Positions 24,214-31,112 of a stretch of DNA of 64,000 nucleotides are shown here, piece by piece. Source of the stretch: Sinorhizobium meliloti (GTDB lineage: Bacteria > Pseudomonadota > Alphaproteobacteria > Rhizobiales > Rhizobiaceae); assembly GCF_035610345.1 (NCBI RefSeq), contig NZ_CP141214.1, forward strand, positions 466,230 to 530,229, written 5' to 3'. The notes below the pieces were generated by a model, which did no database searches, was not told the origin of the DNA, and saw only the letters and a list, made by a program, of their open reading frames with translations. Position 1 is the stretch's first letter; each line of letters opens with the position of its first letter. The position numbers were made by a program, and so were the translations under genes.

Positions 24214-25851
24214 TCAGCGTGAACCCCGGTCGAATGTCCCCGGGCTGACACCGCGCTGCCGCAGGATGCTCCTGGCGATCTTCTCGGTCGGGGTGCGCGG
24301 AAGCGGCGCGTCCGTGATCTCGAGGTAACGAGGGACCATATGGCGCGGCGCCAGCGCGCGGAAATGGTCGAGCAGTTCCGCCGGCGTCAGCGTCGAGCCC
24401 GGCCGGCGCGAAGCGACCACCATAATGTCCTCCTCGGTGAACTCGGACGCGACGCCGAATGCGGCGCTCTCGACGACATCGGGATGCGCTTCGGCCAGCG
24501 TTTCCACTTCATAGGCAGAGATATTCTCGCCCCGGCGCCGGATGGCCTCGTTCAGCCGGTGCTTGAAGTAGAGCCAGCCATCCTCGTCCATCACCCCCGC
24601 ATCGCCGGAATGGTACCAGAGGTTTCTCAGAGTCTGCACCGTCTTGGTGTCTGCCTGGTAGTAGCCGGAAAACATGCTCCAGCTCTTTTTCGGGCGCGAG
24701 ACGATCTCGCCGACCGTGCCCGGCGGCAGCGGCCTGTCCTTTTCGTCGACGACGGCCACTTCCCAGTCGGGGTGCGGCTTTCCGCAAGAGCCCGGCCGCG
24801 TGGCATCCACCGTGTCGAGGGTCACGAAGCTGGTTTCCGTCTGGCCGTAACCAGTGACGAGGCGCATGCCGAAGCGCTGCTCGAAGGCCTCCTTTTCCGG
24901 CACCATGGGAATGCACTGGCAAACCCGCACCGGATTATCCTTGTCGCTTTCGCAGGGCGCCGCCCGCATCAGTATGACGGCCATGGCTCCGAGGAGATTG
25001 GTCGCGCTCGCACCGCTTTCACGAACCTGCTCCCAGAAACGCGAGGCGCTGAACCCTTCGACCAGCGTCGCCCGGGTGCCGTAGATCAAAGGCAAGTAGA
25101 CGCCGAACATCTGGGCATCGGTATGAAACAGCGGCAATGCCGAAAAATAGCTGTCGTCGGTGCTGTATCCGAGATTGGCGGCCATGGCCGCCGCCCATGA
25201 ATAGCAATGATGATGCGACATCAGGGCGCCCTTGGCGGGGCCGGTCGTACCGGAAGTATAGAGGATCGCCATCGGGTCGGAATAATGCAGCCCTGCAAGG
25301 TCGACGGCCGGCAGGGAGGCCAGGCATTCCTCGAAGCGGAGGATGCGGTCGATCCGCAGGCCGGCCGCACGCGCTTCGGCGGGATCGACGCCGACCAGGA
25401 CGAGGGTACGCAGGTCCGGCAGCCTCTGCTCCAACCTTGCGAGCTCGATCACGCCACGCGCGTCGGTGACCAGCACCCCCGCCCCGCAATTGTTCAGATT
25501 GTGCCAGAGCAGTTCGCCCTTCAGACCGGGATTGTTCGGCACTTCGATGGCTCCGAGGTTCGAAACCGCAAACCAGGTCGCCACGAGTTCGAAGCAATTG
25601 GGAAGCAGCATCGCAACCCGGTCGGACCTGCCGATGCCTAGCATGCGAAGACCGCTCGCAAGTCGCCAGGAGACATCGAACATCTCCTCGAAATTCGCCC
25701 GGCGCCCGCAAATATCGAGAAAGGGCGCTGATCCCAAACGCTCGGCCTGACGGAGAAGGATCTTCGGCAGGACGCGGTCTTCGATCTCGTCGTCGTGCAT
25801 GCCCGGAACGGGCGAGCGGGAAACGGTGACTGTTGTTTGCGACACGGTCAA
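24214..25851 (-). CDS. AMP-forming acyl-CoA ligase (CaiC-like)
   Basis: This is an adenylate-forming ligase (about 545 aa). It has the P-loop ILYTSGTTGPAKGALMSH, the GYGQTET adenine motif, the WYHSGDAG motif and a C-terminal lysine in PRTPTEKIARS. It would activate a carboxylic acid as its CoA thioester, presumably the substrate for the mutase or hydratase encoded upstream. The first codon is a TTG at 25851 overlapping the hydratase stop (TTGA); a GTG at 25845 is the alternative. By remembered family it is nearest crotonobetaine/carnitine-CoA ligases. A 2-hydroxyacid is suggested by the mutase active site but cannot be confirmed. Confidence 0.88.
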   Translation of the reverse strand: MTVSQTTVTVSRSPVPGMHDDEIEDRVLPKILLRQAERLGSAPFLDICGRRANFEEMFDVSWRLASGLRMLGIGRSDRVAMLLPNCFELVATWFAVSNLGAIEVPNNPGLKGELLWHNLNNCGAGVLVTDARGVIELARLEQRLPDLRTLVLVGVDPAEARAAGLRIDRILRFEECLASLPAVDLAGLHYSDPMAILYTSGTTGPAKGALMSHHHCYSWAAAMAANLGYSTDDSYFSALPLFHTDAQMFGVYLPLIYGTRATLVEGFSASRFWEQVRESGASATNLLGAMAVILMRAAPCESDKDNPVRVCQCIPMVPEKEAFEQRFGMRLVTGYGQTETSFVTLDTVDATRPGSCGKPHPDWEVAVVDEKDRPLPPGTVGEIVSRPKKSWSMFSGYYQADTKTVQTLRNLWYHSGDAGVMDEDGWLYFKHRLNEAIRRRGENISAYEVETLAEAHPDVVESAAFGVASEFTEEDIMVVASRRPGSTLTPAELLDHFRALAPRHMVPRYLEITDAPLPRTPTEKIARSILRQRGVSPGTFDRGSR

Positions 25852-26597
25852 AACTCTTTTGCTCTTGCCTGCGCCTGCGGAGAGAGGAAACCACGAACCG
25901 TGGCTGCGGTCTCTCGTGCCATAGCGTCCTGAAGGGTCGAGTGAAGGCCGGCATTGATGGCGCGCTTGGCGTCCGCGACAGCGTCTGCGGGACGCTCCGC
26001 GATCCTCAGAGCCAGTTCCCGCGCCTCCTCCAGCAGGCGATCGTCCGGGACGACCTTCCAGGCGATGCCGACGTCCAGCGCCTTCCTCGCATCGTGCCGC
26101 TCGCCGAGCATGAGAAGCTCCTTCGTCACTTGTGGCCCGACCTGCTTCGTCAGCAATGCGGTTACGCCTCCCGTCACGAACAAGCCGTAGGTCACCTCGG
26201 GAAAGAACCAGCGGGCACTTTCGGAAAACAGCCGGAAATCACAGTTGATGGCCCATTCCAGCGCGCCTCCGACGCACCAGCCGTGCACGGCCGCAATCAC
26301 GATCTTGCGCGACTGCATGATCTGGAGCGTGATGTTCTGAATGGCCTCGACCCAGGCTCGCGTATCCGCCTCGCAAGCGGTCTGCGCATCGAGATCCTTG
26401 AGGTCGTCGCCGGAACAGAATGCCCTGCCCTCGCCATGGAGAATCACGGCGCGTATGCCTTCGTCCGCTTCCGCGTCGGCGAGCGCCCGGGAGAGCCCGT
26501 CGACGAGCTGCCGGTTCATCGCATTCAGCCGCTCCGGGCGATTCAGCCTTACCCAGGCGACCGCTCCCTCGTTCTTGGAGATGACAGTGTTGTTCAT
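25848..26597 (-). CDS. Enoyl-CoA hydratase/isomerase (crotonase) family protein
   Basis: This crotonase-fold protein (249 aa) has both oxyanion-hole segments (CSGDDLKDL and HGWCVGGALEWAINCDFRL) and a PEVTYG segment bearing a probable catalytic Glu. The ATG at 26597 follows a very strong AGGAGGGAG site, 11 bp after the mutase gene; an in-frame GTG at 26612 would overlap the mutase stop. It acts on an acyl-CoA in the same pathway as the mutase and ligase. Whether it hydrates, dehydrates or isomerises is open. Confidence 0.87.
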   Translation of the reverse strand: MNNTVISKNEGAVAWVRLNRPERLNAMNRQLVDGLSRALADAEADEGIRAVILHGEGRAFCSGDDLKDLDAQTACEADTRAWVEAIQNITLQIMQSRKIVIAAVHGWCVGGALEWAINCDFRLFSESARWFFPEVTYGLFVTGGVTALLTKQVGPQVTKELLMLGERHDARKALDVGIAWKVVPDDRLLEEARELALRIAERPADAVADAKRAINAGLHSTLQDAMARETAATVRGFLSPQAQARAKEF

Positions 26598-26608
26598 CGT
26601 CTCCCTCC

Positions 26609-29298: not shown

Positions 29299-29762
29299 AT
29301 GCGGCCACGGGCGGCGACGAGGTCGGCAATCGCCGTGACGATCACCTCCGCACGCGCCTCCTGCGGAACGATCGCATCGACGCCGCATTCCAGCAAGGCG
29401 GGATAGTCCTGCTCAGGGATCACGCCGCCGGCGACCACGAGAACGTGCTCGGCGCCCTCCTCGCGAAGGCAGCGGCACAATTCGCGAAACAGCGGGACAT
29501 GCGACCCCGAAAGAAGGCTGACGCCGATGACGTCGACATCCTCCTGGATCGCCGCCGCGACGACGTCCTTCGGCGACTTGTAGAGCCCCGTATAGACCAC
29601 TTCCATGCCGGCATCGCGCAGAATGCGCGCCACCACTTTGGCGCCGCGGTCATGGCCATCGAGGCCCAGCTTGGCGACAAGGACACGAATGGTGTCCGCC
29701 GCGTGCGACGGAGTTTCGGCGTCGTCGCCAAGGCCATCGCCGGTGCGATTCGTTTCGGTCAT
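29295..29762 (-). CDS. hcmB: Cobalamin-binding small subunit of the acyl-CoA mutase
   Basis: This 155-aa B12-binding domain carries the base-off signature D35-G-H37-D-R-G40 ([12 protein letters not shown]), the SLLSGSH segment and the VVAGGVIP glycine pair. An N-terminal extension of about 20 polar residues precedes the domain. It forms the mutase with the large subunit encoded at 26609-28309. It starts 12 bp after the dgdA stop and overlaps the GTPase gene by 4 nt, so the mutase genes are directly coupled to dialkylglycine decarboxylase. Confidence 0.92.
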
Positions 29763-29774
29763 CGGCTGCCTTCC

Positions 29775-31112
29775 CTATTCTGCCGCGAGGTGGGGAAGGC
29801 CCGCGCCGAGGGACAGAGCCGCCTCGATGGACTGCGTGATGATGCCCAGCCCGAGGTCGATCTCCTCTTCGGAAATCGTCAACGGCGGCGCGATGCGGAA
29901 CACGCCGCCCATGCCGGGAAGCTTGACGATGTTCATGCTCAATCCCCGGCGGAAAGCCTCGGCGGCGATCCTGCCGCCAAGCTCGTGATCGGCGCTCCTG
30001 CTCGGGCCCGGCTTAACGATCTCGACGCCGAGCATGAGGCCGCGGCCGCGAACGTCGCCGACGCATTCGAACCTCTGCTTCAGTTGCGACAGTCCGTCGG
30101 AGAGCTTCGCGCCTGTCAGGCGGGCGCGGTCGACGAGCCCTTCCTCGGCAACGACATCGAGCACGGCCAGCCCTACCGCGGCCGGCAAGGGATCCGAGAC
30201 ATGCGTCGTGTAGAAGAGGAAACCCTTCTCATGTGCCGCGTCTTCGATCTCGGCGGTCGTCATCACGGCAGAAAGCGGCAAGCCGGCGCCGATCGTCTTC
30301 GAAAGCGTGAGTATGTCGGGCGTGACGCCGTCGCGCTGGAATGCGAACATGCTGCCGGTCCGGCCGATCCCGGTTTGCGCCTCGTCCAGAATGAGCAGCA
30401 TTCCGCGCGCGTGGCATTTCTCCTTCAGCGCTGCGAGATAGCCCTGCGGCAATTCGAGCATTCCGCCGCTCGACAGGATCGGCTCGGCTATGAAGGCGGC
30501 GAGGCTGCCGGTCGACTGGCTGTCTATGAGCGCGAAGGCATCCTCCAGTTCCGTCTCCCAGTCGAGGCTGCCGTCCGGATGGCGAAAGCGCGGACGGAAC
30601 GCGTTGGGCGCGGGAATGGTGAGCGAGCCGACCATCGCGGGGCCATATCCCCTGCGGCCGGCACTGTACGTGGCGGAACTCGCCGCGCCCGTCATGCCGT
30701 GCCAGCTTTTGGAGAAGGCGACGATTTCATGCCTGCCGGTGACCAGCTTGGCCATGCGGATCGCCGCCTCGTTGGACTCCGCCCCGGTCGAAAGCAGCAT
30801 GACCCGGTCGAGGCCGGGCGCCAGCGCGGCCAGGCGCTCTGCCAGGTCGACGACAGGCCGCGACAGCATTCCGCTGAACAAATGCGCGACCTTTTCCATC
30901 TGTCGCTGGACGGTTTCGACGATCCGCGGATGGGAATGGCCGACCAACGCACTCATCTGTCCCGATGTGAAATCGAGGATGGGCCGATCGTCCGCATCGA
31001 AAACGAAGGAGCCCCGGGCCCGCTCGATGATCGCCGGGTCGAAGCTTCCGCCATAGCGTATCAGATGCCTGCTCGCGGCCGCCCAAAAGGCGGGATCCTG
31101 ATTGTTCGACAT
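29775..31112 (-). CDS. dgdA: 2,2-dialkylglycine decarboxylase
   Basis: This PLP enzyme (445 aa) of aminotransferase class III matches remembered Burkholderia cepacia DgdA over nearly its whole length. Shared blocks include [59 protein letters not shown] and [13 protein letters not shown]. Key residues are present: Gln52, Trp137, the PLP lysine Lys272 (LTLSKT) and Arg406. DgdA decarboxylates 2-aminoisobutyrate or isovaline to a ketone and CO2 and regenerates PLP by transaminating pyruvate to alanine. The start at 31112 has GGAGG upstream. It is the first gene of the mutase operon and is divergent from a LysR regulator, as dgdA/dgdR are in Burkholderia. Confidence 0.9.

Follow-up and report, generated by a model that had tools for sequence, protein, structure and literature searches.

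We have analysed a 64,000-nucleotide stretch of the Sinorhizobium meliloti genome (contig NZ_CP141214.1, positions 466,230 to 530,229; hereafter the window) and found in it a conserved union of the regulon of dgdA, which encodes 2,2-dialkylglycine decarboxylase (DGD), with a module of the 2-hydroxyisobutyryl-CoA mutase (HCM) type. The parts are known, and the combination is new. As explanation we favor, at a probability of a little over one half (about 0.55), an operon under DgdR control that would serve to break down small acids whose alpha carbon is tertiary or quaternary. The pairing of dgdA and mutase may reflect a shared route for molecules with a crowded central carbon. A single regulator over branches of the 2-aminoisobutyrate (Aib) and 2-hydroxyisobutyrate types would offer a direct handle on the question of what natural compound contains the two. 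For a chemistry that is under engineering, according to the cited excerpt (PMC11599936), the locus adds a mutase subfamily and a candidate ligase, both of them new.

Background

The following background is taken from excerpts of the cited sources. Aib is attacked by DGD or by AibH (PMC7782822). A DGD of yeast has been described, and the peptaibols, peptide antibiotics made by fungi, contain Aib and isovaline (PMC10169451). 2-Hydroxyisobutyrate is related to acetone cyanohydrin and linamarin (PMC2847961), and its breakdown has been seen in few microbes only (PMC7176365). In clusters of the Aquincola tertiaricarbonis type, 2-hydroxyisobutyrate-CoA ligase (HCL) is encoded with hcmAB and meaH, and the regulator belongs to the GntR family (PMC7176365). 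The ibc cluster of Mycolicibacterium ELW1 has likewise been described (PMC13188929), and HCM homologues have been screened as lactyl-CoA mutases (PMC11599936). In the open-access literature we found DGD together neither with HCM nor with methylmalonyl-CoA mutase (MCM), and nothing on tert-butylamine degradation with a mutase. An earlier reading of the same DNA (the original prediction) had called the pairing undescribed, and the lack of any joint mention of the two enzymes in that literature agrees with it.

Operon layout and identity of the enzymes

Six genes lie on the minus strand in the order dgdA (29775..31112), mutase small subunit (29295..29762), MeaB/MeaH-type mutase chaperone GTPase (28297..29298), mutase large subunit (26609..28309), a crotonase-fold member of the enoyl-CoA hydratase/isomerase family (25848..26612) and an AMP-forming acyl-CoA ligase (24214..25851). 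A gap of 12 bases separates dgdA from the small subunit gene, which overlaps the MeaB gene by 4 bases; the MeaB and large subunit genes overlap by 13 bases, and the large subunit and crotonase genes by 4. Crotonase and ligase genes also overlap by 4 bases or, with the starts of a 98% identical annotated record, are separated by a 2-base gap. The operon-like layout that had been predicted was thus found in place, and the gene spacing suggests a single transcript for all six genes.

DgdA aligned to the structurally solved 2,2-dialkylglycine decarboxylase of B. cepacia (PDB 1d7r) with 656.7 bits, the next kind of enzyme reaching 225.8 bits, and 303 of 432 residues (70.1%) are identical. Among these are Q52, W138, H139, M141, S215, D243, Q246, K272, N394 and R406, which we take to be the active-site residues of the enzyme. 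On these scores the window protein is an orthologue of the B. cepacia enzyme, clearly apart from other class III aminotransferases, as the original prediction held.

The mutase large subunit scored 728 bits against HcmA of A. tertiaricarbonis (4r3u_A; 58% identity), 454 against human MCM and 234 against IcmF, and the small subunit (PF02310) had HcmB as its best PDB match (4r3u_C, 143 bits). In a phylogenetic tree the window mutase fell within a clade of 77 HCM-like sequences (support 0.98). Kurteva-Yaneva reportedly concluded in 2015 that HCM is set apart by two residues of HcmA, Ile at A90 and Asp at A117, and HcmA with an Ile-to-Val change is said to stay active. That pair is present in 43 canonical-type sequences, HcmA among them; other mutases carry Tyr and Ala (six sequences) or Phe and Ala (three) at the same positions, pairs that are presumably MCM-like and isobutyryl-CoA mutase (ICM)-like. 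The window mutase keeps Asp117 and has Val at position 90, as do all 30 readable copies of the mutase from 29 loci with the same gene order (cassettes, see below). A further comparison, from which three Shinella copies were omitted, yielded 26 positions that separate 28 cassette sequences (including the window's) from the 43 canonical ones. Bit scores and the residues at HcmA positions 90 and 117 together exclude an MCM or ICM. The assignment to the HcmA type made in the original prediction therefore holds, with the refinement that the enzyme is, as judged from its residues, a member of a distinct Val/Asp subfamily of the HCM branch.

The MeaB-type GTPase scored 309 bits against TIGR00750 (cut-off 240.75) and contains PF03308. 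The crotonase-fold protein contains PF00378, and its best PDB match was 5zai, a 3-hydroxypropionyl-CoA dehydratase (144 bits).

Conservation and spread of the cassette

Species genomes were scanned with the large subunit, and the best 80 of 83 matches gave 79 loci, at which gene order was scored by tblastn; because its patterns were derived from the query, the scan may have passed over cassettes of distant sequence. The mutase is at least 79% identical to the window's in 31 loci, and 30 of these have a divergent LysR gene followed by dgdA, small subunit, MeaB, large subunit, crotonase and ligase in that order (in one, L030, the large-subunit match is incomplete). With the full set present in unchanged order at all but one of these 31 loci, the linkage of dgdA and mutase is more than chance. 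Absence of this linkage from other genomes had been named in advance as an outcome that would speak against the original prediction, and on this count the prediction was not refuted. With a cruder picker of open reading frames, the number of loci at which a given cassette gene was recovered ranged from 23 to 30 out of 30, a spread that reflects the limit of the picker. The cassettes occur in Sinorhizobium, Mesorhizobium, Shinella, Aminobacter, Pseudaminobacter, Phyllobacterium, Rhizobium, Labrys, Brucella/Ochrobactrum, Hoeflea, Pseudogemmobacter and Roseovarius, with mutase identities of 79-98%; strains that have the cassette include Sinorhizobium medicae USDA1037 and S. meliloti 4H41. The single locus without cassette order is that of Peristeroidobacter soli (L023).

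In an order-wide survey of 397 genomes, DgdA was found in 39 and a mutase above threshold in 11. Four of the 397 have a mutase 88-100% identical to the window's, with dgdA about 1.5 kb away. The other seven, with mutases 56-61% identical, are all outside the 39 DgdA genomes at the threshold used, which excludes a general co-occurrence of dgdA with HCM-type mutases. The scan and the survey are not independent, because the three linked survey genomes besides the window's own are those of loci L011, L012 and L021 of the scan.

Across 28 loci (L020 and L030 omitted), six core proteins (DgdA, LysR, MeaB, large subunit, crotonase and ligase) have diverged in step, their pairwise divergences correlating at r 0.88-0.93; shared host ancestry contributes to such correlations. 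The small subunit correlates less well with the others (0.44-0.58), as does a neighboring binding protein for branched-chain amino acids with the six core proteins (0.58-0.68). In one Rhizobium metagenome-assembled genome (L020:1170-15626), two diverged cassettes meet at their ligase ends in tail-to-tail orientation, and their substrate ranges may differ.

Predicted regulation

A LysR-type regulator gene occupies the position of DgdR, divergent from dgdA (31204..32064, plus strand; PF00126, PF03466). Between the two genes lies a predicted LysR operator, ATCAGTTTTCCTTATATC-N13-TATCAATTTTAC (31161..31203, minus strand), which is conserved in lysR-dgdA regions: all 30 cassette loci have ATCAATT-N4-TGATATC, then 12-13 bases, then TATCAATTTTAC. 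A matrix was built from these 30 sites and applied to dgdA loci that lack the mutase. Seventeen such loci were examined from 35 genomes of the order; eight encode, on the opposite strand to dgdA, a LysR with 46-54% identity to that of the window, and in six of the eight, all out of sample, the matrix found the same layout with a spacing of 12. The scores for L097, L100, L101, L103 and L105 were reached by none of 300 shuffles. Because the operator is common to the cassettes and to six of eight mutase-less dgdA-LysR loci, the mutase module would stand behind an ordinary dgdA promoter region and operator. This comparison suggests that an ordinary dgdA regulon acquired the module, and shared regulation of the dgdA and mutase branches is supported by the predicted operator that cassette and dgdA-only loci have in common. 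In the window genome the operator occurs at a single site at 13-base spacing with at most three mismatches; other genes sharing it are excluded within those limits, 13 being the only spacing searched genome-wide.

Ligase, mutase relatives and likely substrate

The ligase (PF00501, PF13193) is nearest to PRK06155 (NF004808, 476 bits, under the cut-off of 722), and its further matches include crotonobetaine/carnitine-CoA ligase (254 bits, below cut-off). It gave no alignment at E 1 with the HCL of the relative L031 (see below), and HCL was absent among the best 60 of 202 PDB matches, so the ligase was rejected as an HCL. An HCM operon would have a PaaK-like HCL and MeaH; the window has a MeaB-type GTPase and a ligase from another family. 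As a whole the original prediction is partly upheld: layout, DgdA, mutase and apparent novelty stood, and its chemistry was mostly right. The ligase is not the known 2-hydroxyisobutyrate-CoA ligase. In S. medicae WSM419 (L119:8382-9985) the ligase matches are split over two reading frames, so that the gene may be interrupted or mis-sequenced.

Relatives of the mutase outside the cassettes bear on the substrate. In L031 and L070 the mutase is 62% identical to the window's and also has Val/Asp, so this pair is not confined to cassettes. Both clusters encode the small subunit, a 2-hydroxyisobutyryl-CoA synthetase, MeaB, the large subunit and a crotonase 52-53% identical to the window's, and in L031 a short-chain dehydrogenase (SDR) follows. 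The L031 synthetase scored 677 bits against 6hdw, and the L070 copy is 97% identical to it.

The L023 mutase is 84% identical to the window's and has 25 of the 26 subfamily positions in common with the cassettes. Its neighbors include a 3-hydroxyacyl-CoA dehydrogenase and a thiamine enzyme, which scored 453 bits against 7pt1 and at most about 200 against oxalyl-CoA decarboxylases and is thus a 2-hydroxyacyl-CoA lyase. Cassettes and L023 form a clade (0.83) with L031 and L070 next to it (1.0). Because L023 falls inside the cassettes, at a weak support of 0.77, its mutase may derive from a cassette. The genome has no DgdA orthologue (best match 36%). The same locus (L023:1-21692) also encodes another ligase and several peptidases (S8, S9, M19, M20), and a route from peptide to acetone to CoA is possible there.

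In L045, from Mycobacterium sp. NAZ190054, a 48% identical lyase homologue, a Val/Asp mutase, a relative of the window ligase and an SDR (58% identical) stand in a row. This cluster adjoins a canonical mutase cluster with HCL (L045:69-11635). A CoA branch that starts from a 2-hydroxy-2-methyl acid is most likely, because relatives of the mutase and ligase sit with HCL or the lyase. Conversion of a 2-hydroxy-2-methylacyl-CoA to a 3-hydroxyacyl-CoA is indicated by the relatives in L031, L070, L023 and L045, together with the SDR and thiolase genes near some cassettes.

Acetone and possible sources of the acids

How acetone from DgdA would feed the CoA branch had been called not evident in the original prediction, and still no link is shown. 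The search for a 2-hydroxyacyl-CoA lyase at E 1e-80 gave 0 of 29 cassette genomes (L016 was left out, and this search had no positive control); by local tblastn the same query matched L045 and L069 at 46-48%. The window genome has no close lyase, its best thiamine enzyme being 29% identical (152 bits). An acetone-recapturing lyase was therefore rejected, both in the cassette and, within the searches made, elsewhere in the genomes. Present instead is the gamma subunit of acetone carboxylase, which the window genome encodes, so acetone would there probably be carboxylated. The subunit was matched in 14 of 29 cassette genomes (11 strong and 3 weak matches) versus 22 of 397 in the order (3 weak), and in one only (G292) of the 35 mutase-less DgdA genomes; kinship alone may explain the higher frequency among cassette genomes. 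What connects the branches is their layout and the predicted operator in common, and not a demonstrated metabolite.

A gene for nitrile hydratase alpha was found in 23 of 30 genomes, including the window's, a count that has no background rate and so indicates a possibility only. Cyanogenic glucosides (linamarin, lotaustralin) are a possible common source of the substrates. The fungal peptaibols proposed in the original prediction may also form part of the diet, an idea drawn from the known origin of Aib.

Comparison with known systems

The window resembles the HCM clusters (HcmA/HcmB/MeaH/HCL of A. tertiaricarbonis; ibcM-N-O-P of Mycolicibacterium ELW1) in its two-subunit B12 mutase with its own MeaB-type GTPase, its CoA ligase and Asp117. 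The ELW1 cluster also has a thiolase and a major facilitator superfamily (MFS) transporter, as the window does, and a 3-hydroxybutyryl-CoA dehydrogenase (excerpts of PMC7176365 and PMC13188929), where the window has a probable 3-hydroxyacyl-CoA dehydrogenase. The window differs from these clusters in the moderate identity to HcmA, Val at 90 and the 26 subfamily positions, in a ligase of another family in place of HCL, in being led by dgdA, and in having LysR where those clusters have GntR. With the dgdR-dgdA locus, as known from B. cepacia and from the 17 mutase-less loci, it shares the DgdA orthologue and the two marks of that regulon, a divergent LysR (8 of 17) and the predicted operator layout (6 of 8). 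However, five more genes follow dgdA in the window, and the operator spacing is 12 or 13 in cassettes and 12 in those loci.

The aib cluster of Rhodococcus wratislaviensis, an Aib-induced catabolic cluster, likewise has a LysR-family regulator (PMC7782822). Unlike the window, its AibH1H2 monooxygenase route hydroxylates Aib to methylserine without a dialkylglycine decarboxylase, and the excerpt of that source names no B12 mutase (PMC7782822). The 2-hydroxyacyl-CoA lyase route of actinobacteria, of which L023 has a homologue, acts on 2-hydroxyisobutyryl-CoA and links it to acetone (excerpt of PMC7176365), whereas the cassette contains no lyase.

Proposed function and alternative explanations

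In the explanation we favor, DgdA would act on alpha,alpha-dialkylglycines such as Aib and isovaline with pyruvate as amino acceptor, releasing CO2 and a ketone (acetone or butanone) and forming alanine. The ligase would place CoA on a 2-hydroxy-2-methyl acid (2-hydroxyisobutyrate or 2-hydroxy-2-methylbutyrate), and the B12 mutase, kept active by MeaB, would shift the CoA-carboxyl group to give a linear 3-hydroxyacyl-CoA, which crotonase, SDR and thiolase would take on to acetyl-CoA. LysR, the ordinary partner of dgdA, would control both branches through the operator common to mutase-less dgdA loci, and acetone would leave by the acetone carboxylase encoded elsewhere in the genome. From the gene content and order, conservation, operator-like conserved sequence and family membership observed here, we infer the substrates, the 3-hydroxyacyl product, the inducer and the service of both branches to one nutrient source.

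Several observations weigh against this explanation. No known step makes a 2-hydroxy-2-methyl acid in Aib-sensing cells, and the ligase, not being HCL, could charge another acid. The mutase and ligase of L045 are only 47% and 39% identical to those of the window. Since L069 has a lyase homologue too, there beside a canonical Ile/Asp mutase and HCL, the lyase marks the substrate class and not the Val/Asp subfamily. SDR and thiolase genes were found near only 12 of 30 cassettes within the flanks examined, and an acetone carboxylase outlet is not general, because 15 of 29 cassette genomes are without a gamma match. As to the operator, the score for the cut region of L099 was initially reached by 42 of 300 shuffles, the site being recovered on the full stretch; it is weak in L106 and absent in L108 (95 of 300 shuffles). 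The SDR, thiolase and binding protein genes have no such operator, and the outer operator box overlaps the ribosome-binding region of lysR, which may explain part of its conservation.

It is unlikely, in our estimate, that the cassette is stable but without metabolic meaning, the mutase module serving an unrelated acid and riding with dgdA on plasmids or mobile stretches. Such a history would accord with the 35 of 39 DgdA genomes of the order that lack the mutase, a count that also weighs against the operon we propose, with the 18 plasmid records that hold at least 80% of the region, and with the missing metabolite between the branches. It accords poorly with a gene order that 30 loci from many genera have preserved, at mutase identities of 79-98%, and with the tight packing of the genes, which are adjacent or overlapping. 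The module would most simply be expressed by transcription that continues from the dgdA promoter, where the conserved predicted operator lies. A plasmid of S. meliloti Rm41 matches the thiolase end only (window 33513-34716, 94%), without the cassette.

We consider it quite unlikely that the six genes form one Aib pathway, in which the ligase would make 2-aminoisobutyryl-CoA (or isovalyl-CoA), the mutase 3-aminobutyryl-CoA, and the crotonase crotonyl-CoA and ammonia, with DgdA as a parallel arm for nitrogen salvage. The position of the mutase genes behind the predicted dgdA operator would suit such a pathway, as would the replacement of HCL by a ligase whose matches include crotonobetaine/carnitine-CoA ligase, the occurrence in 26 of 30 loci of the binding protein for branched-chain amino acids, and Asp117, which could hold an ammonium group. 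However, the relatives point to hydroxyacyl-CoA: the 84% identical L023 mutase adjoins a 2-hydroxyacyl-CoA lyase, L031 and L070 use a real HCL, and in L045 the ligase relative adjoins the lyase homologue and SDR, with no crotonase match there. We also know of no aminoacyl-CoA mutase of such a kind. In a fuller form of this idea, Aib and isovaline would be degraded by one new pathway: the B12 mutase would turn 2-amino-2-methylacyl-CoA into 3-aminoacyl-CoA, so that the cell would use the whole carbon skeleton as well as the nitrogen, with DgdA as a side arm. This form seems to us more doubtful still.

Salvage of acetone from DgdA with formyl-CoA through a reversed thiamine lyase, to give 2-hydroxyisobutyryl-CoA for the mutase, is improbable: acetone is formylated to this thioester in Desulfococcus biacutus (stated in the excerpt of PMC7888143) and the lyase stands beside the close mutase of L023, with a homologue by the Val/Asp mutase of L045, but the lyase search of the 29 cassette genomes, which had no positive control, was empty, the best thiamine enzyme of the window genome is only distantly related, L023 lacks a DgdA orthologue, and a source of formyl-CoA is not evident in the operon.

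Neighboring genes

Downstream of lysR lie genes for a LivJ-type branched-chain amino acid binding protein (32169..33287, minus strand; NF011933, 364 bits, under the cut-off of 477), an acetyl-CoA C-acetyltransferase or thiolase (33526..34716, minus strand; NF005404, 637 bits, missing the cut-off of 687; TIGR01930, 414 bits, over cut-off) and an SDR (34741..35532, minus strand), whose best 25 of 218 matches include SDR families, none over cut-off, and which is a probable 3-hydroxyacyl-CoA dehydrogenase. An AraC-family regulator follows (35598..36671, plus strand; annotation of a 98% identical record), and such a gene is near 17 of 30 cassettes. Beyond the cassette itself and the genes for binding protein, AraC, SDR and thiolase, no gene family occurs in more than 4 of the 30 loci. 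Located 3' of the ligase gene is an MFS transporter, a possible importer (22739..24085, minus strand; PF07690, PF00083), found among cassette loci only in the Sinorhizobium loci L003 and L004.

Farther along, at about 36650-37560, the annotation of a 98% identical plasmid record gives a RES NAD+ phosphorylase with an Xre/MbcA/ParS antitoxin. A second catabolic region occupies window positions 37643-57523, with Ldh_2 and MR_MLE proteins, a glycine-betaine-type ABC binding protein, an M24 peptidase, a trimethylamine-methyltransferase (MTTB) family protein, a DAO/GCV_T oxidoreductase and a Rieske/DmmA-like protein.

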